A stretch of DNA of 64,000 nucleotides from Polytrichum commune. Its lineage: Eukaryota > Streptophyta > Polytrichopsida > Polytrichales > Polytrichaceae. Both the position numbers and the translations under genes were made by a program. The DNA lies in assembly GCA_950295325.1 (NCBI GenBank), contig OX485804.1, forward strand, positions 19,220,001-19,284,000. Reading direction: 5' to 3'. Shown here one piece after another: positions 13,346 to 43,760 of the stretch (positions within the stretch are counted from its first letter, which is position 1; the number at the start of each line of letters is the position of its first letter). The notes under the pieces were generated by a model. It worked only from the letters and a program-made list of their open reading frames with translations, did not search any database and was not told the DNA's origin.

Positions 13346-13912
13346 AAATGGGTAGCCGTTAATGGCCACCATTTCTATGATGCCAACTTTTGTGTTCTAG
13401 TTTAGGCTGGCTGTCAACGGCCACCCTTTGTATGATGCTAACTTCTATGTTCTAGTTTAGGGCAGTCGTTAACGGCCACTCCTTCTTGGGTTTCAGACTT
13501 CATTTAATAATATAATTTCTTTGAAATAAAATCACATATATACATATATTTCTTATGTCCGTCCCATCTAAAAGTGTGGCCGTTAACGGCCACCCTTGGT
13601 TGCATCTCATATTTATTGGTATATGTGTTTTTCCTTTCATGTATACACTCATTTCCGTCATTTTTTGTCTTTTAACAAGGGTAGCCGTTAACGGCCACCC
13701 TTATTGAAATTTCAGATTCTTTTCTATATGTGTTTCCTTCTTCATGTATACATTCATTTCTTTATTTTTATTTTCTTCAACAAGGGTGGCTCTTAACGGC
13801 CACCCTTATTCAAATTTCATATTATTTTCTATATGTGTTTATTTCTTCATGTATACACTCATTTCCTTAATGTTTTATCCTCCAACAAGGATGGCCGTTA
13901 ACGGCCACCCCT
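13346..13912. repeat. Palindrome array, older element (GTGGCCGTTAACGGCCAC type)
   Basis: Seven copies lie at about 13,350, 13,404, 13,461, 13,576-13,593 (perfect), 13,679-13,700, 13,784-13,805 and 13,889-13,910. The last four are spaced 103-105 bases apart, each followed by a similar AT-rich spacer containing CATGTATACA, so this is a tandem array with a unit of about 104 bp. It lies between the transposase (minus) and the methyltransferase-type gene (plus), as in the younger element, but its unit length differs from the 210 bp there. Confidence 0.8.
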
Positions 13913-24199: not shown

Positions 24200-25560
24200 G
24201 ACATTGCGCATAAGCAAGATGATTGTAGGTCACACTATCCAATGGATGTGTGGCGTTAGTATGCTATTCATTTTACATGCCATACGTTGTATATTTTATT
24301 TGTAATAATATGAGTGTTATATGATTTCCCCTTAAATATGGTCTAATGTTTGGATTGTCCTACCTAAACCATCTAGATATGAGTTCTTAATTGGGTTCTT
24401 GATATGAACACCCACTTTAAAGTATTTGCATCTTAGAACATTCTCCAATATATGTGTGAATTTATCCATAATCTTATATTTGCAAATGTCTTAAAATTCC
24501 AAAAAATCCCAAATTAACAAATATAGTGTTAATTACGTGTTCAATATACCTACCTGCACACTACTTACACCGTCTTCTAAAATATGTAGACTTTTCTTGA
24601 AATGTGTTCTTTCAACATAAATTGCTTGGCTTTGTAGATCAACGTGTTTTCCAAATGTTTATGATTTTTTCCTTCACAAAATTCAAAATTAATATATAAT
24701 GTTGAATCACTTTCACTAACACCTATGCATGGTAACGGAGTTGTATATTTGACTGTGCTTGCGCCTTTGGCTAGTTAGGCCATGTCTCCCCTTTTGTCTT
24801 TGACACAACACAACAACCTAGCCACACATGCCGATGATGTGCCAAATGAGAAAAATATGATGAAAGACAAAGCCTCATCCTATTGAAAAAACATGGTTCC
24901 GGGCACTAGCGTACTAGATGGTCTTATAATCACCATTGATACATTATTTTTCACAAATGCATCCCCAACTTGATCATGCCATTGATGAAGAACATTTTCT
25001 GAAAAATGCTCTAATACCTAAAAAACATGAGCACACAAGGAATGGGAATCACCTAAATTTCTTCTTGCTTCAAGATAGATACTTCTCGCCCTCCAACTTG
25101 TAAGTGCATGATTTGAAAGTCCAAGGCATATTATAATCTTCTCTCATGCTTGGAGGGAACACTATATTCGTTAATCGGAGACTTTTGAAAGTCTCAAAAT
25201 TAAATATGCCCATAGTTTGGGATGCCAATATTGTGGGCATATAGAATATTGGGAACATCAAGAACATGATGATTTATAAATTCGCATGCGTAGAATATTA
25301 TCATTACTAAAAATAGAAAGTCTCAATTACAATGAAAACGTGTAGTCCATGTAAAAAATAACAATGGACTTTTAAAAACAAATTGTTTTTGTCATTTTAG
25401 AGTTTAGGGTGCCCATCCCAAAAGTAAGGGTCTTATAAAGTTGGATGACACATCCCAAACATATGCCACAATGGAATGTGACAAGTCTACTAAGTCTATT
25501 AAAAACCAAGCTTGCTAAGCTCACATGCCTCTCGCCATTAACTCCCACCTAGTATGTTAT
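24200..25560. other. AT-rich stretch with a dispersed repeat
   Basis: No gene seen. About 24,500-24,790 resembles 47,480-47,722 (same strand) and 59,060-59,290 (opposite strand), sharing AATTGCTTGGCTTTGTAGA and the CACAAAATTCAAA block. This is a dispersed AT-rich repeat family. Confidence 0.45.
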
Positions 25561-25562
25561 GT

Positions 25563-28500
25563 TTACCCATCTCCATTTTCCGCTTCATATCCATTGTCCG
25601 AGTCATTTTCCGCAGCTGCAATACGTGCCAAATTGTCCTTGGCAAAATCTATATGTTTTTGGGGGATGGTCATTGATTCTGTTTTGGAACCTTTGCGCGG
25701 CTTCCAAGCACAAAGTATAGTATCCGTGTTTATCCAAACCGGTTTGTACGCTGAGTCCATTGTCCACTTGAAATTGTTTTTGGTGTCCCAACCTAAATAA
25801 GTGCGAAGCACGTTCTGGTCTTTAGTGCTTGGACGGCAATATTCCACCTCAATTTGACGAAAGTTGGGGCTAGTTCGAACAAAATTGGGTGAAGACAATG
25901 CTTTCACCAACCAAATTGGTTTGGGATGCTCCTCATCCCCAACTCGTACGAGCACCATATAACCTTCGTGGCAATCAACCCCAACACGAAACGACGGTGC
26001 CGGTCGATTGCGGGCAGGGCCAACGTAATGTTCATCCATTGCGAACTCTTCACGAACGTCTCCATTGCTAAAAAACATGGTGTCGGACTCGACAACCGTC
26101 AAACGACTTTGTGGCCAAAACCCTTGTGTCAAAGTCGTACGGGTGTCGCCATCAACTGTCACTAGTGCCGAGCGAATGCGATCCCAATATAAAATCAATG
26201 GTTCATGAGTATCTCTAACACGTCTAGTGATGTCCTCCTCACACAACTCCTTCCAATATTTAATGAATCCGGATATGCCTTTGATGATCTCCGGTCCATT
26301 CCTCATGGGGTCGGGTTTACAAGGCTTTGGATCCCCATCCGGGAGCAAACATTTCCCATCATTGTCTTGACGCCATACTAGTATACCATCATCCGGGCCC
26401 CAATTAGGAGATGTGCACAAAAGCTTGAATTGCATGGCCGGGAGACCATCATCCCTTATATAGAATCGGAATTGTTGTCTTTTGGTGTGTCCCACCAAAC
26501 GGTCCCCTCCTTTCAACATGTATGGCTTGATGAAGGCCTTAAAATCTGGTACTTCCTCGATCATGTGCGGAATCACCGGCATATGGTCCAAATCCATATA
26601 CGATTTCATAAGAAGTGGTATGGTTGGAAAATCTTCCTCATGCAACTTCATGCTCCACCATCCGAAGGACGCATCAATGTCGTCATGTGTGTGTCCCACC
26701 ATCAAGAAAGACACAAACACCTCCTTGAAGATACCTTTTGCCACAAGCAAAGACCAAAAACAAAATACGTATCGACATTTGTTGTCCTTTGCGCAATTAT
26801 CAAGTTGAACGTGGAGAGTTGGAGGCAAAGGTTTTGCACAAATAGGCTCTCCGGATGCTTCCGGCAATGACGACATACAAACCTCCTTACCCGCAAGCAC
26901 TGCCTCATAAAGGGGTGTCGTTCCACACCCATCAAACAATGCACGTGAAGACTGTATCGGCGGTTTCTCTAGATCGCGCAAGAGTTTTGCAAATGAACCC
27001 ACCGTGTGGTTAGCATCGCCAGGGTAAAAATCCAAACCATAATGGGCATATTTTACGTCCCCATGGCCGTGGGCAATCATACCTATAAAAAACAAACGAT
27101 GGGTTAATCTCCAAAAAAAATGAAGAGACCACTAAAGTAGAACATTTGGAAAAACCACCCAATAAAATAGGATTTAGGGTGAATATAGGTTTGTTATGCC
27201 ATACAAACTTGTTACAGATACGGGTAACTTGAAAAAACCATTCGTGGCCTTTATTTTGCGAGCATAACAAGGGCATACGGTCTTCGAGTGGTCCATTTTA
27301 TCATGGATAATTGTTAGAACCTCTGTAGGCCTCATTATGGATAGAGCACGGTTCTTGTAGTAATCTTGACGGTGAGCCTCTTGGTTGTTGACATGTTCAA
27401 TATATTTTGCCTGATGCCTGGTATGAGACTCAGTACCTATGGGGTGGGCATCTCGAAGACCTTTGTATTTTTCACACGTCGTGCACCTTGCGAATTTGTC
27501 ACCAGGTCTCTTCAAAATATATTCAGCAAATTGTTGGTTTTTAATGACACTCAACTTGGACAAAGAAATGGGTCCACAACCCACTATGCGACCCACTTCG
27601 TTGATATCCGTTAATATGTTCTTCCATTTTGTGCCCGTGGGCAACACCATTTGAACAACTTTCTCCCCTGTCGACAATGTCCTCGTCTTGTGGGGCATTG
27701 CATCGGCCAATGGCACTATGATCGTGGAGAGTGTGGCGGAGGCTTGGAGTGTAGACTCCCTAGGTTTCTTTGTGCCCGCATTGCCATGAAATCGAGAGTG
27801 ACGACCCAATGATGAATACTTTCTAAACCTATAAAAGTCAGCCTTGGAGACGGCATGAATGGTATACCATGCGGTACAACATACTTCCACATTCTCGAGG
27901 GTCACCACCTTATGGCCATGCACATCAAGGTGCAAATTTCTATGGACCTCGAGTTTCTTTGCTGATCTCATACGAAAATCCGCAAGCCACATCTCCTGAC
28001 GCAAAGACTTAATTTTTTCGCGGGGGAAAAATTGGCAACATTTTTTTGCACAACAGTCCTTGGCGGACACGAGACGGATAGAATCGTCTCCTATTATGCG
28101 ATCCCGTCGACGCTCTTTATCATCAGGAGGCGTGCGGCTAGAATCATATCTACGGAGGCCTTTGCGAGGACGAGTGTTGGAAACCAAGGTTGATTGAATT
28201 TGCTCATGCCGTCGCCTATGATCCCACAAGCTTACTTCTTCATGGAGAACCCGACGAAGGGACCATCGGCGCAATGAAAACCTCCAAGTCACAGGGACCT
28301 CAAGCGGAAGCAAAGAATTCAAGATGCACACCCCAACATCATGGAGACCAAGGGGATTGGCATCAACACATTCACGGGGATCGGAGTTTCTACATATGCC
28401 ATTTGCCACCGGGACACCTAGATCATTAAGTAGAACCACATCAAGGCCCACCCATTTCTCCCTACCATATCCTGCATACAAAGGAATGTCATCGTCGTCC

Positions 28501-28684
28501 ACACCGAAATGTAGAGAACTGTCGTGCACTTGAAAAGAATCATGAGAGGATGTACGCAATGACACACCCTCCACTTTGTGTTGTCAAAACTACCCGCGGA
28601 TGAGGATGAAATTTCACATTCACGAACGGAGGACGACATGTCTGTTGACAACTCCAGAGAACTACCATCCACATGCATCGCCAT
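25563..28684 (-). CDS. DUF7869-type transposase-like protein, about 1,000 residues, one or two introns
   Basis: Two long minus-strand frames (28,574-27,174 and 27,095-25,563) join across an intron of about 100-150 bases near 27,080-27,230. FFKLPVSVT ends the first part and GMIAHGHGDVKYAHYGLD begins the second. The N-terminal part has a Cys-rich motif (CCAKKCCQFFP) and FARCTTCEKY. The C-terminal part has LHVQLDNCAKDNKCRYVFCF and FLMVGHTHDDIDASFG, the conserved core of the DUF7869 family; its Asp residues and RNase-H-like spacing suggest a DDE-type nuclease. The last residues are acidic. A start at the ATG at 28,684 (MAMHVDGSSLELSTDMSS) needs a frame change or intron at about 28,575; the downstream frame has no nearby ATG. 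The exact intron border was not settled. It is probably part of a mobile element. Its 5' flank is the ACGAACG palindrome array. Confidence 0.65.
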
Positions 28685-28794
28685 CCCACCTACAAAAACC
28701 AAAGGCACCAGGAGACCCAAACGTAAACTAAAGAATGATAGCCAACATGGACGACATTCAACGCAGTATGTCAAATCAGTCAAGTTCTAAATAC

Positions 28795-30091
28795 CAACGT
28801 CCGTTCGTATACGACTGCAATAGTGAATGTGCCTATGTGTGGAAGTCAATAACTTAGAAAGCCTTTCAAAGTGCTATCATATTGATCGCTGATGGAATTT
28901 ACGAAAGTGCGTTCGTTAATTACAGACCATCGACTTGCATGAGCAGAACGTGCAAGTTTTTTATACGAACGTACGTTCGTATAGCATAGGATGAATGAGT
29001 TTGGGTATAAAGGTTTATAAACGAGGAGTTTTTTCTGGAAACCAGTACAGAACTCGCATGTTGTATTAACGACCAAAATTTGTAAACCACAACTATCCCG
29101 AATTTCGAAGAGTATATCGGGACAAAACAAATAGCATGTTTACGAACGCACGTTCGTAAAACCACAGAAATCACTATCTGCAGGTGTACACCAGGAAATC
29201 ATAGATGGCGTACTTACGAACGCACGTTCGTAAATGAACAACCATTATATTTATAATTGCACATACATAAAAGCGTAGATGCCACATTTACGAACGCACG
29301 TTTGTAAATGAACCACCATTCGTATTGCAAATGATTGATATATATGTGTCACAACGTTGACTCTGGTATATTTTGGTAGTTACGAACGCACGTTCGTAAA
29401 CCCACAACATTGCGTCCGATCCAACTGTGCTACTGATGGGACCTCATACTTACGAACGCGCGTTCGTAAAACCATAGCAACCCCCATCTGAATGTATAAA
29501 CTAGGAAATCATAGATGACGTACTTACGAACGCACGTTCGTAAATGAACAACCATTATATTTATAATTGCACATACATAAAAACGTAGATGTCACATTTA
29601 CGAACGCACGTTCGTAAATGAACCACCATTCGCATTGTAAATGATTGATATACATGTGTCACAACGTCGACTCTGGTATACTTTGGTAGTTACGAACGCA
29701 CGTTCGTAAACCCACAACATTGCGTCTGATCCAACTGTGCTACTGATGGGACCTCATACTTACGAACGCACGTTCGTAAAACCACAGCAACCCCCATCTG
29801 AATGTATACACTAGGAAATCATAGATGGCGTACTTACGAACGCACGTTCGTAAATGAACAACCATTATATTTATAATTGTACATACATAAAAGTGTAGAT
29901 GCCACATTTACGAACGCACGTTCGTAAATGAACCACCATTCGCATTGCAAATGATTGATATACATATGTTACAACGTCGACTCAGGTATACTTTGGTAGT
30001 TACGAACGCACGTTCGTAAACCCACAACATTCCGTCCGATCCAACTGTGCTAGTGATGGGACCTCATACTTACGAACGCGCGTTCGTAAGT
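28795..30091. repeat. Palindrome array 1 (ACGAACGNNCGTTCGT), with 310-bp tandem units
   Basis: Sixteen copies are present. Two are eroded (28,795 and 28,899); the others are at 28,963, 29,139, 29,214, 29,285, 29,380, 29,450, 29,524, 29,595, 29,690, 29,760, 29,834, 29,905, 30,000 and 30,068. From 29,139 the sequence repeats with a 310-bp period for just over three units, four palindromes per unit. The core arms are TTACGAACG and CGTTCGTAA with a two-base spacer (CA, CG, TA). The array begins about 110 bp upstream of the DUF7869-type gene start. Confidence 0.9.
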
Positions 30092-30420
30092 ATCCGGTAT
30101 TTGCGGCGGTATATGCGGGATATGCTATGTCCTGTACCTGTGAGGAATACGGTTGGCGAACAGGAGGGTGGCTTGAGCGCGCTCCGACGACTCTCTAGAG
30201 CGCACACCTCCCGTCAGCCGCAGAAAAGAGCTCTCCCGTGGGGGGAAAAACTTTAAGTACCTCCCCCCGGTGGTTCAAAATCTCTTGGATGCTCTTTAAA
30301 AAGCGGATTCCCGCCCCCTACCTAGCCCTACCAATATGCCATTCCCGCCATGACCAATTATATAAATAGCATTTTGTATGCAACATGTATTGCATGCACG
30401 CACATTATATTGGAAAAAAA
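30092..30420 (+). promoter_or_regulatory. GC-rich segment followed by a TATA-like box
   Basis: The 250 bases after the array are GC-rich and unlike the surroundings. A frame open through the last palindrome continues to a stop at about 30,254 (RYLRRYMRDMLCPVPVRN), but I recognise no family. TATATAAATAG at about 30,357 is a good TATA box followed by TGCATGCA-like sequence. No gene start can be tied to it, so its role is uncertain. Confidence 0.25.
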
Positions 30421-30599
30421 TGTAAATCGGTCGCACACCTTAGATGTAACCAAGGTCTGAACCACCAAATCTATATATATATATATATATATATACATAT
30501 ATATGTTTCATGATATTTAAATATTATGAATTTTGACATAGAAGATTAAATGATTTGCAACCAAGGTGTGAAGTCCAAGTTAATTAACAATTCGTATCT

Positions 30600-30930
30600 A
30601 ATACAATAATGGTATATTTGGTAATTGGAGTCATTTAGTTGATTTTGAGACTATTTAAGAACGCACTTTAAATTTCAAATATGGACTTGTAATTACAAAC
30701 TAAAACTTTCATACGTATAGTTTCCAAATCGGATACACCTTATATTAGACATAAAGGCATTGAAGGGAACAAAATTATGAAACATAGTTACATGAAAATA
30801 TTTGCACATGAAATGAGAAATAGACCCCAAAGGAAGGGAACATACCGAGAATTAATGGAACTTGAATCAATTCAATGGAAATACCATCCATAACTCTTCT
30901 TAACCTTGATATATAAAAGAAACTAAATAT
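30600..30930 (-). repeat. Inverted partner of 41,480-41,790
   Basis: GATTTTGAGACTATTTAAG and the following 270 bases match the reverse complement of 41,480-41,790 at roughly 70 percent by eye. The two copies bracket the palindrome-bearing gene region 34-41 kb. In the right copy it is the sequence just after the last gene, so it could be a duplicated 3' flank rather than a TIR. Confidence 0.5.
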
Positions 30931-31334
30931 AGAAACTAAATTTATATCACTCAATAAGGTGGGAGTGGGACTCATGGACCCATGAACAGAAAATCATTGA
31001 CGCATGAATTAAGGGCCTAAGACATGCAAGTTATAATAATATTAAGTATGGATTGTGTGAACAAATTGTATAATAACTATTAAGTTATTATTTCATCAAA
31101 ACTCTTAAGTTTCAAGTTTTATTAATCACATAAACCAAATTTTTGTCTCAATTCAATTAATTTAGAATCTCCAAATGACAATCGGCATGATTCTCAATTA
31201 TTACGATTGATATGAATCGAATAAAGCAATTTCCAATCCATCGAACATCGGTAGATCATTTTGACATGCCCATAGATCACAACATGGCCACATACAAGAC
31301 TACCATGTAAGATACAAAGATGCAGGGATGTAGA

Positions 31335-31388
31335 GTTTAGGGTTGGTGATAGTGTTTAGGGTTTAGGGTTTAGGGTTTAGGGTTTAGT
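31335..31388. repeat. Interstitial telomere-like repeat (TTTAGGG)n
   Basis: About six TTTAGGG units, some imperfect, lie in AT-rich DNA. This is the plant-type telomere unit. A shorter CCCTAAA run is at 34,166-34,190. Confidence 0.8.
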
Positions 31389-31389
31389 G

Positions 31390-32970
31390 TATTCGACCAC
31401 GTGGCTGCAATGCACAAGTTCAATCTAAAATGTCCTCAAATGAATGACGATAAACAAAATTCAAGCATGTTTACTAAGTTATTGAAGTTAATGTGATAGA
31501 CGCATCCATTACATATAGGGTTTACAAATCATGAATTTAATGTGAACTCATTACTTATACATTCAAGTCGTTATAAGTGTTACATATTGTAGAATGTTTC
31601 AGTCAATTAATACTTAAGTTGAATTATATATACTATCGTTTATGCTTTTTTTGTATTAAACCTTAGGGTCCTAGTTTTAAAAACAATTAGTGTTAATTCT
31701 ATAAATGTTCATGGTTTAGGGTTTTAGTTGTACAAGTGTTACTTGTACATTTTGTATAGTTGTTCTTTTTTAAACCCCCCCACCGAAGGCTGATTTTTCA
31801 CAAAGGTTTTGCCCGTCCACGTCCAAAAACCTTGAATTGAAAGGCAAAAAAAATTGCAACCCGTCCCAAAACCGGTAATTATTTCTAAACCAACCCGTCC
31901 ATGGAAAGGTTAAAGAAAAAACAACCCGTCCCAAAACAGGGAATTTCTAAACCAACCCGTCCATGAAAAGGTTAAAGAGAAAAACCAATTAATAAAGATA
32001 AACCGAAAGATGTTGGCATGTGATTGGTTGCACTTGGAAACAATAGGATCTTGCTTCAATGCCATCAATACTATGTCTTTTTGCTAATTTCAGCTGCCAC
32101 CACCAGCATTCCCTCCACGACATTGCCCCCCCCCCATTTTTTCCATTTGAGTTTTGAAGCTCTTCCCATCGAGCAGGTATTGAAGCTCTTCCCATTAACA
32201 AATATAAGTTAGTTAGGTATCTCTTACACACATTCTTTCTATATCTTTTGGGCATGAGGGATTATGAGGTTTTGGGTGAAGGATTTGATTTATTTTTTTG
32301 GAACAAGAACTGGTAGGCTTCGCGGTCGAGGAGATTCAACCTACCTTTTTTGTCATGCACTGCAATATGTGAGAGGGGTTTTCCTAAACAAAACCTAATC
32401 AAAATCATCTACGTACTAGTTTGAAGTTAGAAACTTTAGAAGCTTTGATGCGCATTTCATGTGCAAATATTCCAGTTGAAAACATAAATTGGAATGCAGT
32501 GATGCTTGTTTGGAGAAACATGAAGGATAGGAGAATTCATCCACTTCTTTGAAGGGTAAGTAGGTATTTATTTTAATTTTTTTGATCATATTCATATATA
32601 ATGATTCTTATTCAATTGCTAAGTGTACCTTCAATTATAATCTTTGACATTATGTTAAAAAGGTTCTAAATTTTGTGGTTGATGAATTAATGTATGCAGG
32701 TGAATCATGCACTTCAATTTGATATTTTGATTGGGTATTAGTGCTTTGATTGCATTATGCTTATATTCACATGTCATATATGACATAATGATATTTATAC
32801 CATTTATGTTTTTGAGACAAAAATTATAAAAACATTATTTTTAGAACCCATCCAAAATAAATTTGAAATGTCCAAAAACCAGTTCATTTTCTAAGAACCC
32901 GTCCACTGGAAATGATTTTTTTTAATGAACATGTCCCTAGACATGTTAGGGACCTTGTGAAAAACCACCA
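31390..32970. other. AT-rich non-coding stretch with AACCCGTCC repeats
   Basis: No gene seen. AACCCGTCC-type words recur at 31,858, 31,890, 31,923, 31,955 and 32,897, and GAAGCTCTTCCCAT is duplicated at about 32,155 and 32,182. This looks like an eroded repeat. Confidence 0.35.
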
Positions 32971-32974
32971 CTGC

Positions 32975-33175
32975 CCCTACCCCCCTTCATCTACCCATAT
33001 CTACCCATCCCATCCCATCCCCACCCATGTCCCCTCCCCCCATCCCATCCCACCTATCCCCCTCACACCCTCCCATCCCCACCCATCTCCCCTCCCCATC
33101 CCCACCCATCCCCCTCTCCTCATCCCTTCCCATCTCCCATGCTCATCCCTTCCCATCCCATCCATGTTAAGCGCG
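32975..33175. repeat. Pyrimidine-rich CCCATCCC simple repeat
   Basis: Two hundred bases consist almost only of C, T and A in words such as CCCATCCC and CCCCACCCATC. The minus strand is therefore G-rich with many GGG runs, capable of quadruplex formation. It lies just upstream of the GC-rich leader of the 34.6-kb gene. Confidence 0.8.
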
Positions 33176-33740
33176 GTCCAGTGGAGGGATGCCACATGGC
33201 AGCCGCAGGGAAACCCTAGCGGTGCCGGCTACCTCCCCGCGCCCCTCCTCCTCATTCTCATTCCCAGCAGAGAGAGGAGGAGCGAAGTAGAGCGGAGCGA
33301 AGCTCTGGCGAAATTTAGAATGCTTTAGTTTATGTGTTTTTTTCGCATCTTAGGAGTCGCATATTTCTCTTCAGTTTGGAACGAATCTGATTAGAGAGCT
33401 TCAGAGTTGTGCGCATCAGGAGTAGAGAGCTTGTGAGCTTGTGCAGGTTGCAAGCTTTCTTTTTTTTGTTGTTTTTGTGAGCTTCATAGTTGCAAGTTCG
33501 GAGAAGACAGCTTGCTAGGTGACAGCTTGAAGTTTGTAGGCTTCAGAGTTGCAAGCTGTGTTTTAGTGGTTGTTTTTGTGAGCTTGATAGTTGCAAGCTT
33601 GGAAGAAGGAAGCTTGATGGTTGCAAGATTGCAATTTCAGTGCACATGAGTAGTTGCTAGGGTTTAGGTCTCATTCAATTGCATACAAGGAGTGTTCCAA
33701 AATTTTCAGCAAGAAGAAACAAGGTCAAGCACATTGCAAT
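33176..33740 (+). promoter_or_regulatory. Probable promoter and 5' leader of the 34.6-kb gene
   Basis: A GC-rich block (33,176-33,310) gives way to a leader with repeated AGTTGCAAG/GCTTG words (33,420-33,640). AATGTGAGTGAAG at about 33,737 could be a leader-intron donor, paired with acceptor TTTTGCAG at 34,613 directly before the ATG. If so, palindrome array 2 lies in the 5' intron. No TATA box is clear. Confidence 0.35.
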
Positions 33741-34012
33741 GTGAGTGAAGTAATCCTTCTAAACTCGCTTCCCAAACATTCTGAATTTCTGCATTGTTGA
33801 ATTCCATGGGTTTTGTTTGTATTGTCAACTTCTTTAGCATGAGATCTGGCATGTTGTGTATGCTTTATGAATTCTGCACTGATTTGGTTTGAGTATCCTG
33901 GTTCTAATCCAGTGTTGCAGGCACGAACGCAAGCATTCTTCAGAGCTGAAGTGTATACGTATACGTATACATATACATACACGTACATGTACGGACAGAA
34001 CGCTCTCAAGAA

Positions 34013-34580
34013 GTTCACATTTACGAACGAGCGTTCGTAAATGTGAACACAACCTGCAAACCAGAGCTGTTGTGACCCCTCCCAGTCCATATGTTTACGA
34101 ACGCACGTTCGTAAACACGCAACCCATCCTCTTTTCATGTGTTTACGAACGCGCGTTCGTAAACACCCACCCCTAAACCCCTAAACCCCTAAATTTTACG
34201 AACGCACGTTCGTAAACAAGGAATACATAATAGTCTGAGTATTTACGAACGCACGTTCGTAAGCACATAATCCCTGCCCATACCTCATTATACGAACGAG
34301 CGTTCGTAAATGACTGCCTTGTGCCCGTCAAAAGATTTACGAACGTGCGTTCGTAAACACATGTTGAACAAATTGAAGATATAAATCAGTATAAGTCACA
34401 ACAGAACAAAATAATATAAACACATTGGTATTTAAAACACGCAAACATCTAAAGCCAAAAGAACAGCCTCTCAAACAGAACACATTTACGAACGTACGTT
34501 CGTAAATATCTCAACAACTATTGTTCAAAATATTTGAAAATTGTAGAACTCTGTCTGCTAAATACGAACGCTCGCTCGTA
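34013..34580. repeat. Palindrome array 2, nine copies upstream of the ParB/methyltransferase-like gene
   Basis: Copies start at 34,013, 34,093, 34,139, 34,195, 34,243, 34,291, 34,336, 34,484 and (eroded) 34,562. Spacing is irregular and the spacers are unrelated, unlike array 1. At 34,013-34,048 complementarity extends to 17-base arms (GTTCACAT outside the core). At 34,139-34,166 it extends through GTGTTTACG...CGTAAACAC. Spacer dinucleotides include AG, CA, CG, TG and TA. Confidence 0.9.
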
Positions 34581-34613
34581 AATACGATCCTGACTACCTA
34601 TGTTGTTTTGCAG

Positions 34614-37600
34614 ATGGCCATCCCTAACAGAAGCGCGATAGAGATGTTCGGACAGAAGTTGGAGAGTGTCCCAGAGTCAGTGACAGACGACAATAGGAAT
34701 GACAATTATGTCCCACAGGAGGACTTCATGAAAGAGTGGACGGCGCTTCCAGAGATGTTAGAGGATGGAACATTCGTCCTCCGCTTCGTCTACCAGCTCA
34801 ATACCAACGACGATGAACCAGAGCAGTGGGTGCAGATGGCAACATGGGAGATAGATTCCGTGGAGGCACAGGGCAATTACGTAATCCTCAACATGAAGTA
34901 CAACAATGACCACGTCAACGTGTTGCTGGACTACTTGGCATACACCTTCTCCCACAACTACGCGCAGATGCATGTTAAAGAGGAGGGAAAGCGTTTCGAC
35001 CTGCCAAAACTCTTCACAAGATATAGCCTAAGTCAACATTGGACAGCAAGGAAATTGACCGCTTTGTGCTTGAACATCTCCAAGACCAACAATGCTGTGT
35101 TGGAGGCCAACAAGAAGAAGAAGAGTCCCAAGAAACCAACGCAATCCGGTGCAGGCGGATCCAGAAGTGCTCCGCGGCCTGTTCCCACTGCGAGCAGATT
35201 GACCGAAGGTACGAGTAGACATTCCACTCCTTCGAAGAGAACGAGGGACGACATGGAGAAGTCTGGCGTAACTGAGGGCGCAGAGGTCAGTTCCCCGCCA
35301 GTCATGCCGGCTCCTTTGCAGAAAGGAGAGGTACCGGACGGTACGAAGGCCACGCGCATCCTTCGAGATTTTAACAGTTACTCGAAGGACTGCTGGCCAA
35401 TGGGTCAATTTTTCACATTCAACGTCGACTGCTTCAAATGTGAAAAATCTCCAAACAAGTGGGTAGTGAGGTCACGGGAGACCGGGGGTGTGAAGTGGCA
35501 GTTGAATAACCTCTACAACAACGTCAAGTGGGACAGGCAAACAGTTTGTGTGATGCCAAAGGGCTTCACTACCCATCCCACGGAGAGGGATTGGCCACGA
35601 ATCCTTAACGGAGATTTCTGGATCATCGACGGACAGCACAGCTTGGAGGCTGCTAAGATCGTTCTGAATGACGACGCCTTCCAGCACGAGCTGAAGGGCG
35701 ACTTGCGCTATTGGAAGTCGTTTCTGGTGTGGTCAGACGACTGGGAGAAGCTCCGCAAAATATCAACGTATTTGAATAGCGGAAACAAGACGAAAGTTTT
35801 TGAGGCGTCCTGGGCTGCGAATATTGTTGCTGCAAGAGACGTCTGGGTGGCACACGGTAGCCCCCCTAAGGAGAGGGAGAACGCCAAGAAACCTTCTCCA
35901 CAGTGGAATGTAAGTTTACGAACGTGCGTTCGTAAACATCATCTCAATATTTCCTTTCTTGTTTGCATTTTACGAACGTGCGTTCGTAAACATCAGCTCA
36001 ATATTTCCTTTCTTGTTTGCATTTTACGAATGACTGACATCCATTTTAATATGCAGGCGTTCTGCGACGCTATGGTGGACAAATTCTCCTCCATCGACAT
36101 GAAGTCTACTTCAACCAAGTCGGTGCTGGAGTTGAAAGGTGAGCTCAGGCTCATATGCTGTACAACAGACACCTGGGATTTATGGACCCAGTTTTTTGAC
36201 TCCCACACGTCGGGAGATTTAACCAACCCCGACATGGAAGAGAAGTACAATGCCGTTGAGAACTTCGAGTGCCCCCCGCTGCTCAGGGAGTTCTTCAGAC
36301 CCCTCCAAGGGCTGACAGAATCGGAGTTGAAGCGATGCGCCGTGCACGCTCTAATGAAAACAGAGGGAAGGAAACTTCCCTATTCAAAAATATTTTTGAA
36401 GAGACCCAAGCACAAGCCCGGGACGTACTCCATCAAGGAGTGGTGCGAGCATCGAAAGCTGAAGACAGCAGCAATGAGGGAATTGAGCGCACTGGCACCT
36501 CAATACCAAATCTTCGACGTCGATGGCGACGTGAAGTGGAATCACTGGAAGGTGTTCAAGCAAGCCTTTAATATTAGAGGCCCCTCAATGCGAAGTCTGG
36601 TCAGGGAGCACGCCGCATCTTTGAAACTGAAGGGCAACAAACGGACTAAGAAATCCGAGACGGATGCCCAGGAGGTGGGCCTTTATAAAAAAAAATTGGA
36701 GAGGAAGAGGACAGCAACATTCGAAGGAGTGGCGAGGTTTTGCACTGTCACCACCGGCCTGGAGAGGACCACATTCTCTAAGTGGGACGGTAGCTTCACC
36801 AGGGCGGATGTTAGGGAGGACCGACGGGGATGCCCATTTGCCCTGATCGATTTCAGGAGCATCCCGGGTGCGTCGAGCCGCGGGACAAAGGACCTGCCAT
36901 TCTACAACCCATTCATGGCCAAGTTCATGGAGTACAAATCTCCTACCATGAGGGAGCCCCACGTTTGGCTATGGATTGTCGAGCACGAGAGGCTGTCGGA
37001 AATTCTGGAACTGTACGAGAAGACCATCAAGTTCGAGTACAGTATTTACCACAGCACCTATGTTCCCGCCAAGACAAAAGGGATTGTTGTAATCAACGAG
37101 GCCAGGGGAAACAAGCAGGTGGGAGCAGTCAGCCTCGTCTTCCTGACCTTCAACCAACTAAGGGATGGGAGGGTCCCTATCAAGGCTAGCAATGTATTCA
37201 AGAAGATATACAACATCCCGCACCCACCTCCCAAAGATCTATTCCAGGAGACGTTATTTACTGTCATTCCCGCAGTTGAACTCAGGCTGGAATTCTACAT
37301 ATCCATTCTCCAGAGTTTGACAACCCATGGAGAGACGGTGTACAGCGTATACGGGGGCAGCAAGTTTTTGTACGCGGCCATGGTAAGCCCACTCTCATTT
37401 GTTTACGAACGTTCGTTCGTAATGTTCATTGGTCTATTAGTCTTAGTAATACTAGTTATCATACTAAGCTTGACATTTACGAACGCACGTTCGTAAAGAC
37501 CAAGGTCTGCACCTGAAATAATAGGTTAGACATGAAGTCATTGGGATTGCTGACTTTTACGAACGCACGTTCGTATTTGCTGACATGTTCTAGTTTATGC

Positions 37601-37686
37601 TACAGATGCTTGGCTTGGTCGTCAATTCCTATCTGGACGCAACCGACGAAAGGAGTACAAGCGTCACAGGGCAAAGGCGTCAATGA
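34614..37686 (+). CDS. ParB-like (DGQH) plus methyltransferase-like protein, three exons
   Basis: The start is the ATG at 34,614, directly after TTTTGCAG; the longer open frame upstream is intronic. Exons are 34,614-35,909, 36,057-37,382 and 37,606-37,686, with introns GTAAGT..CAG and GTAAGC..CAG, giving about 900 residues. Residues 160-225 are a basic, Ser/Pro-rich linker. Around residue 339, GDFWIIDGQHSLEAAK resembles the DGQHR/ParB-Srx loop, with Ser where Arg is usual, followed by ISTYLNSGNKTKVFEASW. Residues 690-700 (CPFALIDFRSIPG) stand where methyltransferase motif IV would be, without DPPY. Residues 859-875 (GETVYSVYGGSKFLYAAM) stand where motif I would be. The layout parallels the Region 1 element gene. 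Missing catalytic residues suggest a DNA-binding rather than enzymatic role, if the homology holds. Palindromes lie in the 5' region and in both introns. Exon 3 may instead continue into the frame at 37,653-39,047. Confidence 0.6.
35910..36056 (+). other. Intron 1, built from 54-bp repeats carrying palindromes
   Basis: This 147-base intron (GTAAGT..TGCAG) holds two copies of a 54-bp unit. Each starts with the palindrome (35,914 and 35,969) and continues CATCANCTCAATATTTCC. A third partial copy (TTTACGAATG, 36,023) follows. Its length is a multiple of three with no in-frame stop, so a transcript that keeps it stays open with 49 extra residues. Confidence 0.8.
37400..37580. repeat. Three palindromes in intron 2
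   Basis: Copies at 37,403-37,422 (spacer TT), 37,476-37,497 (CA) and 37,558-37,575 (CA) lie inside the intron 37,383-37,605. The spacers between them are unrelated. Confidence 0.85.
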
Positions 37687-39047
37687 TGGACCTGGGTGAC
37701 ATGAGTGGCCCCAGGACAGACTTCAGCTTGCCATCGGAGGGGGGAACGCCGGTAATTGACACGGATGATGACGAGCCCACCCCCTCAGCTAACCTTGAAG
37801 CGATCATCCAGTCGTTGGATGTCACTCCTCTGCTGTTACTGCCGCCATCAAGACTGCCTTTAGACCCCCATGGGACTCCTGGGGGCTACACCGGGTCGTC
37901 TGCTGGGGCAACCCAAGATGTCGCCCCCGCAAGAGTATCTGGACTGGATCCCTTCGGCACACCTGGGGGATGCTCGACGTCGGGGTCTCCCAGGACCTCC
38001 TCGGTGCCAAAGATGGAGACACTCGACCTCCTCGACCAACGGTCGCGTCCATCCTTGGACCTCTTCAGGAACACGAGGAGGAGGATGAAAAAGACGCCCT
38101 ACGTGGAGCTGCCGCCGGGGGCAATTATCGATGTGTCCGACGAGGACGAAGGGGACATGGACATCATGTCCGAGCTGGGGGTGGAGTACGACAGGAACAA
38201 GCGGGTGAAGGAGGAATCCCTCACAGTTGCCGAGCTCAACTCCAAGCTGGAGCAGAAGATGAAGGAGGAAATGGCGGCAGCGCAGGAGGAGAGCGCCAGA
38301 CAAATGGCGAGGCTGGAGAAAGAGCTCAGGGATTCCGCCGCAAAGACAGACGCCATCTTCGAGATACTGAGAAGCATGCAGAGCATGTCTGCTCCGGTGC
38401 AACAGCCCTACCCCTATCCCCCTGTAGGACACCCCTCACAGTCCTCTTCGCCAGGAATGTACCAAGCAGGGCCATCCCACCCCCGAGCGCATCCAACACC
38501 GGCTGGAAGTCCCTTTCCACCTGAACTGGCAACAACGGCAGCGCCTTCGCACGATGTGGTCTCTGCGGCGATAAGAGAGGACGAAGATTTACGAACGCGC
38601 GTTCGTGAATCTTCAGGTGCGGCAGTCCTCACCCCTCCCCCATCAAGGGTAGGACTGCCCTCAACTGCAGACAGGGTAGTTGCTAGGAGGGGCGATGACA
38701 CTGCGGAACACACTGACATGCTCATTGTGGAGGACACGCAGGGGAGCCCCAATGATGCGGCATGTATCGCGTGCATGGATGTGGAGAGCCCTGAGCATTG
38801 TCAGCATCCTTCTGCGCGGATGGAGGATGTCCGCATGGAGACTCTCGACCTGGGCGGGGACGAAGACGAAGCGGATCTCATTGAACAGACCCAGGCGTCC
38901 CAGGCTGGCCATGCACCAGAGGCCATGGAGGCAGAGGCAGCTGCTCCGATGGAGGTTACGAACGCGCGTTCGTTAATCGAAGAGGAGGGAACTACTCGGT
39001 CCAGCGCCGCTGCCCCTCCCCCCGATGACGAGGTAACTCATCTCTGA
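37653..39047 (+). CDS. Ser/Pro-rich protein with coiled coil, probably the C-terminal exon of the 34.6-kb gene
   Basis: The frame is open from the exon start (37,608) to a TGA after VTHL. Its first ATG (37,683) overlaps the stop of the preceding frame. It contains repeated Pro/Gly motifs (DPHGTPGG and DPFGTPGG), a basic stretch (RNTRRRMKKTP), an acidic stretch (DVSDEDEGDMD), a predicted coiled coil of about 55 residues (ELNSKLEQKMKEEMAAAQEE onward) and a Pro-rich region. Acceptors AG at 37,652 or 37,655 would join it in frame to exon 2 (EYKRHRAKASMMDL); the acceptor at 37,605 does not. Two palindromes are translated in frame: LRTRVRE at 38,583-38,614 and VTNARSLI at about 38,952. I recognise no family. 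Confidence 0.5.
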   Translation, partial: EYKRHRAKASMMDLGDMSGPRTDFSLPSEGGTPVIDTDDDEPTPSANLEAIIQSLDVTPLLLLPPSRLPLDPHGTPGGYTGSSAGATQDVAPARVSGLDPFGTPGGCSTSGSPRTSSVPKMETLDLLDQRSRPSLDLFRNTRRRMKKTPYVELPPGAIIDVSDEDEGDMDIMSELGVEYDRNKRVKEESLTVAELNSKLEQKMKEEMAAAQEESARQMARLEKELRDSAAKTDAIFEILRSMQSMSAPVQQPYPYPPVGHPSQSSSPGMYQAGPSHPRAHPTPAGSPFPPELATTAAPSHDVVSAAIREDEDLRTRVRESSGAAVLTPPPSRVGLPSTADRVVARRGDDTAEHTDMLIVEDTQGSPNDAACIACMDVESPEHCQHPSARMEDVRMETLDLGGDEDEADLIEQTQASQAGHAPEAMEAEAAAPMEVTNARSLIEEEGTTRSSAAAPPPDDEVTHL

Positions 39048-39061
39048 GAATACCTCTCATT

Positions 39062-39510
39062 TTACGAACGCGCGTTCGTAACCAACTAACCCCCTCGTTT
39101 GTTATTGGCGCTTCATGTCCGGCGGCATCAGGAGGCCCGCGCGAGCCTTTTCTGCGTGACACCCTAGGCCTGCCAGTTTTGTAGGACACGGAAATTGTGA
39201 TAGATTATCACGTGAGACATTTGTAAATATTCAACGGATTTAATATATGAGCAGTTTATCTCTGCATCGGATTTTCCCAATTTTGTGCATCGTCTATTCA
39301 ATCCCTGTGTTGTGAATGGTCTGGCGTCTCTATAAACTCTTGCATGCCCCTTCCTCAATCACGAACGCTCGTTCGTAAATGTGTGCGACCCAGTGTCCAC
39401 CTCCTTCACGAACGAGCGTTCGTAGATTATGCCTGTAATCTCACGAACGAACGAACGTTCGTAAATGACGCGCACCGCCACCCGCAGCCCTCATTCACAA
39501 ACGCGCGTTC
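39062..39510. repeat. Palindrome copies between the two genes
   Basis: One copy is at 39,062-39,081, just after the stop of the preceding gene. Copies at 39,361-39,376, 39,408-39,423, 39,443-39,462 and an eroded one near 39,492 lie in the leader of the next gene. These have shorter complementarity (ACGAACG arms without flanking TT/AA), and the 39,443 copy carries an extra ACGA repeat. Confidence 0.85.
39325..39345 (+). promoter_or_regulatory. TATA box of the FCP1-like gene
   Basis: TCTCTATAAACTC at about 39,328-39,340 is a plant-like TATA box about 300 bases upstream of the coding part. It would place four palindromes in the transcribed leader. The first ATG downstream (39,344) opens a 60-codon frame made largely of translated palindromes. 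Confidence 0.4.
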
Positions 39511-39628
39511 GGAAGTGTGCCTTTGAGCGCATTCGCATTGCACTCTAAACCCTCGCTCCCTCGTCATTCCCTTAATGCAATTTTAATTTATTTATTGGAC
39601 CATATCATTGAACTAGTTAAATCGTTAA

Positions 39629-40402
39629 TCACAGGACCCCACGAAGTTAAATCGCAACCCGTCGGCGAGTGGGCCTCAGACCTGTCACAAGCCCTTCCTG
39701 GTTCTTGACCTTAACGGGGTGTTGTGTCACACCCAACACATCCCCAAGGTCCCCACCCGTTCCTTCCGCCAACCCGACGAGATGGACTACGACGGCCAGC
39801 TCGACACTCTGATAAACCGCAAGGCCGTCCGCGCCCGTCCAGGCGTGCGGGACTTCCTTCGAGAGGTGCTCGACCTCTTTCACGTGGTCGTCTGGAGCTC
39901 CATGATCATGGAGAACACGGAGGCCATCGTCGACTTCCTCTTTCGTGGCCTCCCGAGACCATGCCTCGTCCTCGGCCAAGATGCGTGCGACGATCTAGTC
40001 GACGAGAAGGGGTTTCCCGTGCCCAAGTTCGGCGGTCGAGGAGGGGGACAACAGTTCCTCAAGGTCCTCCAGTCCAGGTTGTGGCAAGGCATCCCCATTC
40101 TCGAGGGGGTCCCCCACGGACACTGGCCTACGCCGGAGAACACCCTCCTCGTCGACGACAGCCCAACGAAGAGCGTCCTCAATCCCCCGGGCACCGTCGT
40201 CTTCCCCGACACTTGGACCAGCGATAGGAAAGATACCTTTTTGGTCGATAAGCTAGCACCTTATCTTAGAATGCTAGTGCTCCACCCCGGGAGCATCCCC
40301 GATTTTGTTAGGTCCAACCCCATCGGCAACGCCGCGCTTAGTCCCCGCGACAATGTATATAAGAGCATCGTGCGGCTTGCAAAAATCAATAAATTGATTT
40401 GA
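39629..40402 (+). CDS. FCP1/TIM50-like HAD phosphatase-like protein, 5' exon not identified
   Basis: The frame opens directly after TTAATCACAG (39,628), a good splice acceptor, and has no early ATG, so a first exon is missing. KPFLVLDLNGVL is HAD motif I of the FCP1/NLI family with the second Asp replaced by Asn. VVVWSSMIMENTEAI is motif II, and NTLLVDDSPTKSVLNP is the DD-containing motif IV. The domain ends at VRLAKINKLI and a TGA. The DxN change would remove the general acid/base, so activity is doubtful; plant homologues with DLNGLL-type motifs are known to me as a family. It is GC-rich relative to the surroundings. A decayed paralogue is at 21.1 kb and shares the end point. Confidence 0.75.
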   Translation, partial: SQDPTKLNRNPSASGPQTCHKPFLVLDLNGVLCHTQHIPKVPTRSFRQPDEMDYDGQLDTLINRKAVRARPGVRDFLREVLDLFHVVVWSSMIMENTEAIVDFLFRGLPRPCLVLGQDACDDLVDEKGFPVPKFGGRGGGQQFLKVLQSRLWQGIPILEGVPHGHWPTPENTLLVDDSPTKSVLNPPGTVVFPDTWTSDRKDTFLVDKLAPYLRMLVLHPGSIPDFVRSNPIGNAALSPRDNVYKSIVRLAKINKLI

Positions 40403-40505
40403 ATTGCCACCGTGTATTTGTTTGTTTCCATGTGGATCACATTTCTAATTCCTTTTTTGGATGCCTTTTGGTCGTGTTTGTTGTTGTTGTTGTTGTTGTT
40501 CACAG

Positions 40506-41434
40506 TTTGCCCCGCCTTGCGACGCCCCCCTCCTCGATGGCCCTTTCATTCCCCGCTCGGCCCCTCCCTCCCCCTCGCGCGACGCGTCGAACTTCCGAAT
40601 GCCATCCCTCTACCAATTCTCGGCGGTGGACGCGGCGTCGGCCGTGGATTACTCCCGTGACGTCGGGATCGAAGACGGCGTCGTCAATAGTCCTCCCCCC
40701 AAACTCCACTTGCGCACGCGCGCACCCTCGCCCTCTCCCCTCTCCAAAGAGAAACGAACTCTCGTTCGTTTGGCTACGACGTCAAGGGAGGACGGTGTCC
40801 CTCGTCGCGGTCCGAGCCGGCGTCTCCGCATGGAAGCCCCCCCGCATGAAGCCCTCCCCTCCGCCTCCGCTCCTCCCCCTGCCAACTCCTCCCACGTCGC
40901 TCGTCCCCCTTGCATTGATCCCCCCGTCAACGGCCCGAAAGCCAAGGTGCAATTTCTTTTACTCCCCTACCACATTTCCCGCCGTTGGTTTACTTGTCTC
41001 CCATGTTTACATTCCCTTGTGGCCACGATGTTTACGAACATACATCCCAAACTGCCGTCGTTTCCCCCACTCCGTTCAAGCCTTTGATTTAATCCCACTA
41101 AATTTGCTTTCTTTCGCAGGTGGCTACTTGCTCGATGGGTGCCCATCCCTCCTCGACGTCGTCCTTGGATAGGCTGGCACCCAAGGCCACTTCCTCCGAT
41201 TCCGATCGTTGTTTGGCCGTCCGGCGAACCACGAGACAATCTATCTCCCAAACGCAATCGTATTCCACTCACCATACCACTTCGTACAATTCGGGAGCGC
41301 GTCCGGATAATATTATATGGAAGAACGGCACATATTCCGGGTCCGTCAACAATAATGGTTATAGCCGCGGGCCGGAGATTTTTAGGGCCATGGAGGCTGC
41401 CAAAAAAAAAGAGATGGCCGCGACAAAAAAATAG
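40506..41434 (+). CDS. Small Ser/Pro-rich protein, two exons, adjoining the FCP1-like gene
   Basis: Exon 40,506-40,946 starts after TTGTTCACAG and ends at a GTGCAA donor. Exon 41,120-41,434 starts after CTTTCGCAG and ends in TAG. Phase is 0 at both borders. The product is low-complexity with SPPPKLHLRTRAPSPSPL and ends NGYSRGPEIFRAMEAAKKKE. The same two segments follow the phosphatase-like pseudogene (21,950-22,085 and 23,880-24,190), so they are conserved with it. They may be a separate gene, or C-terminal exons of the phosphatase-like gene through a donor such as AAT|GTATAT at 40,352, which would replace the last 17 residues before the TGA. An eroded palindrome is at 40,752-40,771 in coding sequence. 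Confidence 0.5.
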
Positions 41435-41479
41435 TGGGATGGACTCCCTAAACTAAAAATAGGTTCAAGGCTATTAGAT

Positions 41480-41790
41480 ATTATCTATGACTTTAGATTT
41501 TATTTCGTGTTCTCCAAGACATTGATGGTTTTTCCATTATCCTTGTATTTCATTCCAATTGAATTAATTCAATTTCTATTCATCATCCGTATCTTGCCTT
41601 CCATTCATGACCATTTCTCATTTCATACGCCAATATTTTCATGTATGCTTCACATTTTCGTTCAATTCCATGCTTTTATGTCTTATTATTGTTTCCAACC
41701 CTATACATTTCCGAGTTTTAGTTCGTAATTACTAGTTCTTATTTGAAATGTGCGTCCTTAAATAGTCTCAAAATCATCTAAAAGTCTCTA
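41480..41790 (+). repeat. Inverted partner of 30,600-30,930
   Basis: AAATAGTCTCAAAATCATC and the preceding 280 bases match 30,600-30,930 in reverse. It starts about 50 bases after the last coding exon, so it may be a 3' flank that was copied elsewhere. Confidence 0.5.
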
Positions 41791-41799
41791 ATTAACGAA

Positions 41800-43760
41800 T
41801 ATAGTGTTAGGGTCTTGCAAAAAAGAAAAGAAAAATCAACATTGGGCAATCCGACATGAATTTGAGACTGTTGGCCCTTCCATGCTCAAGGGTCTTGCAA
41901 ATCCCAGTATTAGAATGTTATTATGAACGTGGACATACCATAACAATGGAGAAATGACCTTGTCAATGGATTTGGCGTTCAGGGAATCTGGAGCAAGTTT
42001 CGCCAGTTTAAGATTTCAGATGCACACCAATGCTAAGGCAATGATGAGCACTAGTGGTTATCACTAACATACCTTCAACTATAGTGGAGCAACGTAGTAT
42101 TCAAAGATGAAAAGGCAGTAGTTCATGAATTCTTAGAGCAATCTGGTTGAATGCATGATGCCACAAGAAGGCCTGAGGTGTTTGTATACTATTTGAGAAA
42201 TATGTGGTGGTCTATTCCAACAATTACAAATTCATCTTCAGAAAACACTGCAATATTCTTCTATTGTACTGCAAATATAGGAAGGAATAATATTCTAAAA
42301 CAAATAGTTGTGCCATTCGGCGGACTTTGTCTCAAATGTTGGCAGCAATTATTTGGAAATTTAAGTTGATTTGGAAGTTGAGCGTGGAGCATATTACACT
42401 CCTTGCTTAGATGGCGTAGGTGAAAGGATTTGTTTTGTGTTGGTTTGATTTGCAAATTGGTAAGGTGAGGATGATATTCCTATTTTGGCTTTTGAAAATA
42501 GGCAACGTGATGAAAAGGAAACCTGCGAATGCCAAATTATGGAGCACAAATCGTGGCAAGGAATTGCGTATGCAAAAACATGATCTGGGGTTGAGGGTCG
42601 TAGCTCTTGTGGCTTATTATTGTGATGGGGTGGTTCAAGACAGATTTGAGTTCATAAAACTTCGAGAGTCCCACACAAACCTTCAGCCTTCCATCACAGA
42701 GGTTGGATTCTCATCATTGCAAACCCTTGCAAGACACCATGATGACAACATATATGCTAAAATATAGCTATTGGATATCTTTTTCTTTAAAACTTGACTT
42801 ACATTTCAAAGCTTCTTCATAGCCTCTTTCCACTTTTAGTCCACAAACATAAGGTGGATCATCTATTGACAAAGTCAAATGTTCACCAACCTTCTTATTC
42901 ACTAGAATGATAGCTCCTCAATAAGAGTTGCATCGCTAAGACAAAGAACATCATGCCTCTGACACCACTAAAAGTTCTTCTCCAAGGCCATTGTTGGAGA
43001 CAATGATTTTCATTTCAAGTTTTGAAGAGAGCAACATTGGCTATAACGATTGGAGTGAAGAAGCCACATATAAATGATCCAAAGGGAGGCAATCTCATCC
43101 AATTTTAATGATTTTTAGGGATATTTCTAGCTATGTCAACCACAAAAACCATGGAATAATTTGTAGAATACTTTATTTTATTTTTTTAGAATATTGTAAA
43201 TCACCAACACATAGCTGGCTTAAAAATCATTGGTTTGACACTTTAGCTGGGATGAAAACCACTGCCGATTCCCCATCTTCGTCCCTTCACCCTTTGCATA
43301 AAGCGAATTGAAACGGAACTCAAATTCAATGGTAGGGAAAAAGCCTCAATCAGTGTTGACGCCGATTAAGCCATTTGGGAAGTGCTTGTCATCCATCCTC
43401 CCGGCTAAGAATCCTTGTCCTCTAACAACAAATGCAGGCACCGTTGGCCTCAGTCTACCGGTTCCATCCCCAAACCAGCTTGAACATGGGAAGTGGAGTC
43501 CACCTCCACTTCCTTTAGGGTTAAGGCTGAATGCTCAACATTACAAGCCACACAAGTGGACATCATGTTCAACCTGGGAAACAACTTTAGATCCTCAAGG
43601 TGCAATGTTTCAGTCACGGCCCACGGAATTTACCCATACAAAATCCAAAATTAAAATGGTTCATCAGCTCTTAGACTCCACTTCGGAACTACTGCTAATA
43701 AGCTTACAGGTAGAACTGCATGATGTTATCAAACCTGCCTAGATTGCATTGAATGTTCAG
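41800..43760 (+). other. Unrecognised stretch with two weak open frames
   Basis: Frames at 42,420-42,767 and 43,308-43,742 (the latter 144 codons, Pro-rich, KKPQSVLTPIKPFGKCLSS) have more coding-like composition than the flanks. They lack ATG context, splice partners or recognisable motifs. An alternative frame near 42,470 reads DDIPILAFENRQRDEKETCE. They may be decayed exons. I cannot name a family. Confidence 0.25.

Follow-up and report, generated by a model that had tools for sequence, protein, structure and literature searches.

The DNA analysed here (referred to as the window) was a 64,000-nucleotide stretch of Polytrichum commune contig OX485804.1 (positions 19,220,001 to 19,284,000 of the forward strand), corresponding to C2:19220001-19284000 in the 407.8-Mb genome searched (G000). 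It contained two loci: Region 2, a complete DNA transposon with a DUF7869 gene and a gene for a protein with a DGQH motif, and Region 1, the remains of a likely Mutator-like element (MULE) with a gene of a family marked by a DGNHR motif (the two types of protein are together referred to as DGxH proteins). The original prediction, made from the letters of the window, had read one and the same plan at both loci, namely a transposase-like gene, a palindrome array, and a divergent ParB/methyltransferase-like gene. It was partly confirmed, and the observation was real and broader than first noted: Region 2 was an element with defined boundaries, its palindromic sites occupied particular places and were selectively conserved, and the palindromes were family specific among both DUF7869 and MULE-like elements.

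The Region 2 transposon and its palindromic sites

Region 2 proved wider than the unit of two genes first noted (both of which were confirmed), being a transposon bounded by terminal inverted repeats (TIRs) and target site duplications (TSDs) and carrying a third gene (Table 1). At the left end, the alignment of four other copies broke at the identical base, and the TIR AACACTATATTCGTTAAT had 438 exact copies (226 + 212) in the genome, with none for its backward control. Among the four copies read on both flanks, three displayed an exact 4-bp TSD (AGGG in the window, ATGT at C7:1.83 Mb, and ATGA at C1:49.68 Mb), and three of the four letters agreed in the fourth (CACA/CACG at C7:25.86 Mb). The main open reading frame (ORF) of the DUF7869 gene was found at no fewer than 84 genome places at ≥93% identity, the window counted. 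The DGQH gene had three exons separated by intron 1 (35910-36056) and intron 2 (37383-37605); its splice sites were read from the sequence, and five other copies as well as a distant family (see below) backed them with homologues of exons 1 and 2. Exon 3 of the window copy was split between frames, its opening codons lying in another frame than the remainder.

The palindrome TTACGAACGNNCGTTCGTAA (the ACGAACG palindromes of the original prediction) was found at 37 sites (≤3 mismatches) from 28791 to 39514, with 0.01 expected and with none of 100 shuffles reaching 37. The predicted layout, with the DUF7869 gene on the minus strand, an ACGAACG array, and the DGQH gene on the plus strand, was retained, but the sites did not make up a single block: there were two main arrays, one upstream of each gene, plus further sites in both introns, exon 3, and the 3′ region. 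Exact TTACGAACGNNCGTTCGTAA occurred 3,737 times in the genome and its backward control not once; among the first 100 places listed, 96 fell into five clusters, each spanning at most about 10 kb, and the three clusters inspected were all window-family elements (L019, L032, and L034). One occurrence of the exact palindrome was also found in each of four viral contigs.

Two sets of window-family copies were compared: (i) L018 and L020 (DGQH protein) and L033 (DUF7869), chosen by protein match, and (ii) L019, L032, and L034, chosen for holding palindromes; the presence of sites is therefore unbiased only for the window and the first set. All three protein-picked copies carried TTACGAACGNNCGTTCGTAA as the window did, L020 being decayed with two strict sites. 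L019 kept the left TIR together with 33 strict-pattern palindromes (34 by a looser pattern) and was collinear with the window element over several stretches, and no match to DGQH exons 1 and 2 or to the DUF7869 ORF was found in the 8.9-kb stretch of it examined, so that the protein would need supply from another copy.

From exon 1 through intron 2 (measured in six copies for exon 1 and intron 1, in five, one of them partial, for exon 2, and in four for intron 2), all 21 sites counted were intronic, although introns made up 9.7% of the length, and exons 1 and 2 (13.6 kb over the six copies) contained none. In the aligned introns (five and four copies), 69 of 72 site columns were invariant versus 26 of 146 other columns (gap-free, splice sites excluded); selection or another letter-specific process thus maintains the sites, with the rest of the intron drifting.

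The third gene, encoding a phosphatase-like protein, was 97-98% identical in three close copies, and this cargo gene was also kept in the diverged L032 (80% identity) and partly in the gene-poor relative L019 (65% over 69 amino acids).

Table 1. Features of Region 2 and Region 1, in window coordinates
Feature	Position	Strand	Evidence or remark
Complete DNA transposon, 16.65 kb	25158..41808		Left-end breakpoint shared with other copies; right end and TSD read
TSD AGGG, left copy	25154..25157		Identical to 41809-41812
TIR, left, 18 bp	25158..25175	+	438 exact genome copies
DUF7869 gene, main ORF (transposase candidate)	25563..27095	-	Pfam PF25273, E = 1.9e-39
ORF upstream of DUF7869 main ORF	27174..28574	-	Open frame; no above-cut-off Pfam match
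Palindrome array 1, upstream of DUF7869 gene	28791..30089		310-bp tandem unit
Internal, inverted duplicate of the right end, between the two arrays	30613..30882		Rearrangement, or a related element nested here
Palindrome array 2, upstream of DGQH gene	34021..34581		
DGQH gene, exon 1	34614..35909	+	DGQH motif at 35628; open frame, splice sites, homologous exon in another family
Two palindromes, DGQH intron 1	35916..35989		
DGQH gene, exon 2	36057..37382	+	Splice sites, homologous exons in other copies and another family
Three palindromes, DGQH intron 2	37403..37576		
DGQH gene, exon 3, acidic low-complexity tail	about 37606..39047	+	Read from sequence
Two palindromes, coding part of DGQH exon 3	38589..38975		Both present in L032 and L033
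Five palindromes 3′ of DGQH gene	39062..39514		
NIF/CTD-phosphatase-like gene (third gene)	39719..40402	+	Pfam PF03031, E = 9.3e-12
TIR, right	41791..41808	-	Reads ...ATTAACGAATATAGTGTT, reverse complement of left AACACTATATTCGTTAAT
TSD AGGG, right copy	41809..41812		Identical to 25154-25157
Decayed DGNHR exon of Region 1	3507..4000	-	DGNHR motif at 3649
Array of GGCCGTTAACGGCC in the left half-element of Region 1	4235..5694		
Palindrome array in the right half-element of Region 1	13354..13906		

Palindromes in other DUF7869 families and in Region-1-type loci

The DUF7869 profile search of the genome scored at least 150 places, with other DUF7869 families among them, and two of these were inspected: (i) L048 plus L049 (C1:3.96-3.97 Mb) carried a DGQH homologue with motif FWLIDGQHSVEA and the exon plan of the window (exon 1, 34% identity to that of the window, E = 1e-63; exon 2, 37% identity, E = 4e-83), and it held no copy of the window palindrome TTACGAACGNNCGTTCGTAA and 23 copies of the different palindrome GGGTCGNNCGACCC (8 preceded the DUF7869-side gene and 10 the DGQH gene, and introns 1 and 2 held 3 and 2, respectively); and (ii) the third family L047 (C3:7.20 Mb) carried ACGGGTGNNCACCCGT five times next to its DUF7869 gene, with no DGQH partner in the stretch examined.

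Region 1 of the window was composed of two inverted, decayed half-elements with 18 GGCCGTTAACGGCC sites (≤2 mismatches; 0.06 expected). The predicted arrays were present, and fragments of both a DGNHR-family gene and a SWIM-type transposase gene accompanied them. The DGNHR/methylase gene predicted on the plus strand survived as later-exon pieces at 14200-17367, and the sole DGNHR motif detected was on the minus strand. Relatives of Region 1 were numerous in the genome (150 of 913 candidate places were scored), and they had three exons in common: one containing IPLCRM...DGNHR, one in the middle, and one encoding the C terminus.

The survey of Region-1-type loci covered 19 of them including the window, chosen for diversity and not at random, with L014 (without the first exon) and L015 (half N) left out; arrays were sought over 4.4 kb upstream of the first recognised exon (3.1-3.4 kb for L035 and L036). 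Most loci (12 of 19) had an array with a recognisable palindrome, in six variants, as the original prediction had anticipated for homologues; L016 was among the 12 with degenerate copies only. None of 200 shuffles with a long repeat unit reached the palindromes of the window and L011 (which were not outstanding with short units), and with gaps of ≤4, those of L013, L021, L022, L023, L024, and L030 were reached by 0 to 4 of 300 shuffled units.

A table of exact palindrome cores versus MULE-like subfamilies was close to diagonal: GGCCGTTAACGGCC was found only in the window and L011; TGCCGTTAACGGCA in L013, L022, and L023; TGCCGGCAACGGCA or its complement in L030 and L024; TGCCGTTGACGGCA in L025, L029, and once in L013; GGTGCGGGCACC (two copies) in L021; and GCCGGCACCGGC in L027. 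It was thus borne out that the palindromes differ with the DGxH protein, both in the DUF7869 families (TTACGAACGNNCGTTCGTAA and GGGTCGNNCGACCC) and, in the six variants, in the MULE-like subfamilies. L013 additionally had eight sites (≤2 mismatches) in the intron that separates its middle exon from the C-terminal one. A longer L021 palindrome derived from the tandem-repeat consensus was rejected, having no exact copy in the genome and varying between single copies, and only GGTGCGGGCACC is claimed for this locus.

MULEs have TSDs of about 9-11 bp. The L013 element had the 10-bp TSD TGTGGAAGGC, and no TSD was seen in the second Region-1-type copy checked. A SWIM-like motif, conserved in the window, was recognised by eye in Region-1-type loci, but the proteins gave no Pfam transposase match, and hence the Region-1-type element is likely, though unproven, to be a MULE. 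One plan, composed of a transposase-type gene, locus-specific palindromes, and a DGxH gene, recurred in elements with different ends (4-bp TSD versus 10-bp TSD, the latter in one of two copies), as originally proposed.

Other repeats and duplicates were encountered near or beyond these loci: (i) a 42-bp tandem repeat with the palindrome ACCTTGGTATAACCAAGGT at 386-543 of the window, which could be the site array of another element; (ii) a second, unrelated array with the palindrome TGTTTCGGGCCCGAAACA upstream of the Region-1-type gene of L021 (L021:1-881); (iii) C53:14458-26164, matching both Region 1 pieces of the window at equal score and maybe representing an unplaced duplicate; and (iv) 14 stop-free chlorophyll a/b-binding matches with identical profile scores within 95 kb at C5:1751760-1846160, the whole genome having 34 matches to such genes at E ≤ 1e-10, which marks it as that of a photosynthetic eukaryote.

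Relationship of the DGxH proteins

ParB-type proteins have a nucleotide-binding motif at the position of DGxH, and the putative assignment of the Region-1 protein to ParB was drawn from this motif and from order only. Among the Region-1 relatives, L035 and L036 matched the N6_N4 DNA methylase profile PF01555 above the cut-off (E = 1.1e-7 and 1.5e-8, respectively), and L013 matched methylases weakly (E = 0.17 in Pfam and 0.0022 in PHROGs). The L035-centred Region-1 profile matched the ParB-methylase protein of the apparently bacterial contig C12 (E = 1.3e-4, HH-suite probability 53%) and a second ParB-methylase protein (E = 8e-4, HH-suite probability 25%). The Region 2 DGQH protein gave no match to PF01555 in the profile searches, and its description as methylase-like in the original prediction was not upheld by any sequence match to methylase profiles. 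As we read it, motif IV of catalytic type was degenerate in the sequences inspected, with DIPYG or DIPDG in L035/L036, EYPDG in L013, and DFRxIPG in Region 2.

L035 (C1:9.66 Mb) and L036 (C4:44.11 Mb) made up a distinct DGNH-methylase gene family with DIPYG/DIPDG, and they had no array within 3.1-3.4 kb upstream. The genome scan with the ParB profile PF02195 gave four matches on contigs C10, C12, and C23 and none elsewhere; these contigs carried ParB genes (ParB-methylase proteins on C10 and C12) and were apparently bacterial contamination or symbionts.

The profile comparison of DGNHR with DGQH proteins was performed three times: the best match of the first lay outside the DGxH motif (E = 0.42), and those obtained with a deeper Region-1 profile (E = 0.15) and after adding the 34-37% identical relative (E = 0.17) were confined to the DGxH motif. 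With column-shuffled decoys, the real score of the deeper profile was reached by 3 of 150 for the ParB-like part and 55 of 150 for the methylase-like part; after the relative was added, the scores of the motif domain and the methylase-like domain were reached by 2 and 161 of 200 decoys, respectively. At E = 0.15-0.42, the homology that had been proposed between the two proteins was treated as not shown. The AlphaFold2 models of the Region-1 DGNHR exon and the Region 2 protein were both of low confidence (mean pLDDT, the predicted local distance difference test score, 45.1 and 40.7, respectively), the best Foldseek match of the former had E = 2, and unrelated folds were neither shown nor excluded by this check. 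Kinship of the DGNHR and DGQH proteins is possible, as is a plan that emerged on two separate occasions; common ancestry, as judged from the profiles, is unproven.

Proposed role and comparison with known systems

The palindrome varied with the DGxH protein across DUF7869 elements and MULE-like subfamilies, as self-recognition would predict; this suggests that the protein of each element recognises only its own kind, and self-recognition appears well supported by these patterns, with anti-silencing being a plausible role by analogy. The layout of VANC elements (see below) is the same in kind, and VirB, a ParB relative, is reported to act as an anti-silencer (PMC10653881); on these precedents, the DGxH protein is proposed to bind the palindromes and keep the element open. 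It is most likely the binder, and anti-silencing or activation is most likely the effect. The account to which we give somewhat more than even weight is as follows: the DGQH gene would encode a sequence-specific DNA-binding protein, whose targets would be the palindromes spread along its own element (upstream of both genes and in the introns, exon 3, and the 3′ region); binding would keep all copies of the family, gene-less ones included, open for expression and transposition despite host silencing; and drift in the specificity of the protein would lead to replacement of the palindrome across the element, until each family addresses itself alone.

Several observations weigh against this account. 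The transposase-type gene diverges along with the DGxH gene, so covariation alone cannot identify the reader of the palindromes. No palindromic array was found in 7 of the 19 Region-1-type loci (L012, L017, L026, L028, L031, L035, and L036), the arrays of L025, L027, and L029 were individually unremarkable (reached by 28-124 of 300 shuffled units), the palindromes of L024 and L030 were not outstanding against shuffles with gaps of ≤2, and some array results hinged on the repeat unit and the allowed gap. The pace of change was uneven: Region-1-type exons 88-89% identical (L013 versus L021, L024, and L030) carried different palindromes, whereas one unchanged palindrome was found across window-family copies 66-77% identical in exon 1. 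The copies are related, and thus the 21 intron sites were not independent events. Neither DGxH protein family matched the ParB profile PF02195. CpG transitions accounted for 16 of 38 mismatches at the sites in L020 and 22 of 40 in L019, so that the sites were not permanently unmethylated; taken as an indicator of site methylation, CpG decay gave a mixed picture and was not counted as support.

A wider version, possible but on the improbable side, is that unrelated plant transposon superfamilies took up related DGxH proteins descended from phage-type ParB-methyltransferase fusions, which would load on private palindromes near promoters and in introns, spread from there in the manner of ParB clamps, and exclude or erase silencing; a shift in the specificity of the protein would rewrite the address of the family throughout the element. 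In the search of phage and viral contigs, no relatives of the Region 2 protein were found, the Region-1 C-terminal exon gave weak methylase-motif matches only (E ≥ 3 among the matches listed), and the DGNHR exon gave one chance-level match.

The arrays lay directly upstream of both genes, and repressor operators are frequently palindromic, which would suit operators that serve either copy-number control, through repression of the element by its DGxH protein, or activation of the promoters by a host factor; such a role is unlikely, given that the sites in the introns, exon 3, and the 3′ region exceed the needs of promoters and that a host factor would not need family-specific palindromes. Quite unlikely, too, are binding sites for the DUF7869 (or MULE-like) transposase in assembly of the transposition complex: all three families inspected had an array next to the DUF7869 gene, and DUF7869 genes also differed between families with different palindromes (72% identity over 79 amino acids), but no site of the window element lay near its ends (the first 3.6 kb from the left and the last 2.29 kb from the right), and sites recurred within both DGQH introns. 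A self mark of N4-methylcytosine or N6-methyladenine, set on the palindromes by the ParB/methyltransferase-like protein of the element, is in our view very doubtful, because a methylase match was missing in Region 2 and motif IV, as we read it, was degenerate. The methylase matches of L035 and L036 (see above) speak for such a mark, as do the ParB-N6N4-methylase fusions reported in phages (PMC12704722). Action of the palindromes as RNA hairpins or cruciforms is highly improbable. Complementarity was kept in all 13 cases with both mirrored positions altered (among related copies of the same arrays), but pairing alone would allow compensated drift, while 115 changes were one-sided, the letters were conserved, and many sites lay outside genes.

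For the binding account, the long, well-defined palindromes and the natural protein/site pairs differing by family make self-recognition testable by swaps, and such family-specific pairs could yield orthogonal DNA binders for plants.

In the literature search, which covered listings apart from the papers cited, no described system of this kind was seen, and the elements were compared with known ones. Sola DNA transposons have 4-bp TSDs, and the Region 2 element resembles such transposons and DUF7869 proteins in its TIRs, 4-bp TSD, and conserved transposase-type gene, but it differs in its 16.65-kb length, two extra genes, and palindrome arrays. Bacterial and phage ParB/parS systems share the DGxH motif and palindromic sites, and the Region-1 relatives have a methylase-type C-terminal part; unlike ParB/parS with its few centromere sites, the proteins here lack a PF02195 match, are encoded by eukaryotic transposon genes with introns, and are accompanied by many element-specific arrays. 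VANDAL elements are MULEs, whereas the plan described here was also found in DUF7869 elements with 4-bp TSDs. Sequence-specific anti-silencing by plant transposons has a known example in VANC (PMC5735166 and PMC10398659), and a similar plan is now seen in DUF7869 and MULE-like elements. As reported, VANC is element encoded, binds short motifs located in tandemly repeated intronic and intergenic parts of its own elements (PMC5735166), and induces methylation loss, with targets diverging between related elements (PMC5735166 and PMC10398659); this hypomethylation is a reported property of VANC. Unlike the motif YAGTATTAY reported for VANC21 (PMC5735166), the sites here were palindromes of 12-22 bp, and the protein had a DGxH motif. 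As in VANC/VANDAL, the target motifs were multiplied in non-coding DNA of their own element (with the exception of the two exon 3 sites in the window, L032, and L033), and the motif differed between related elements with different proteins.

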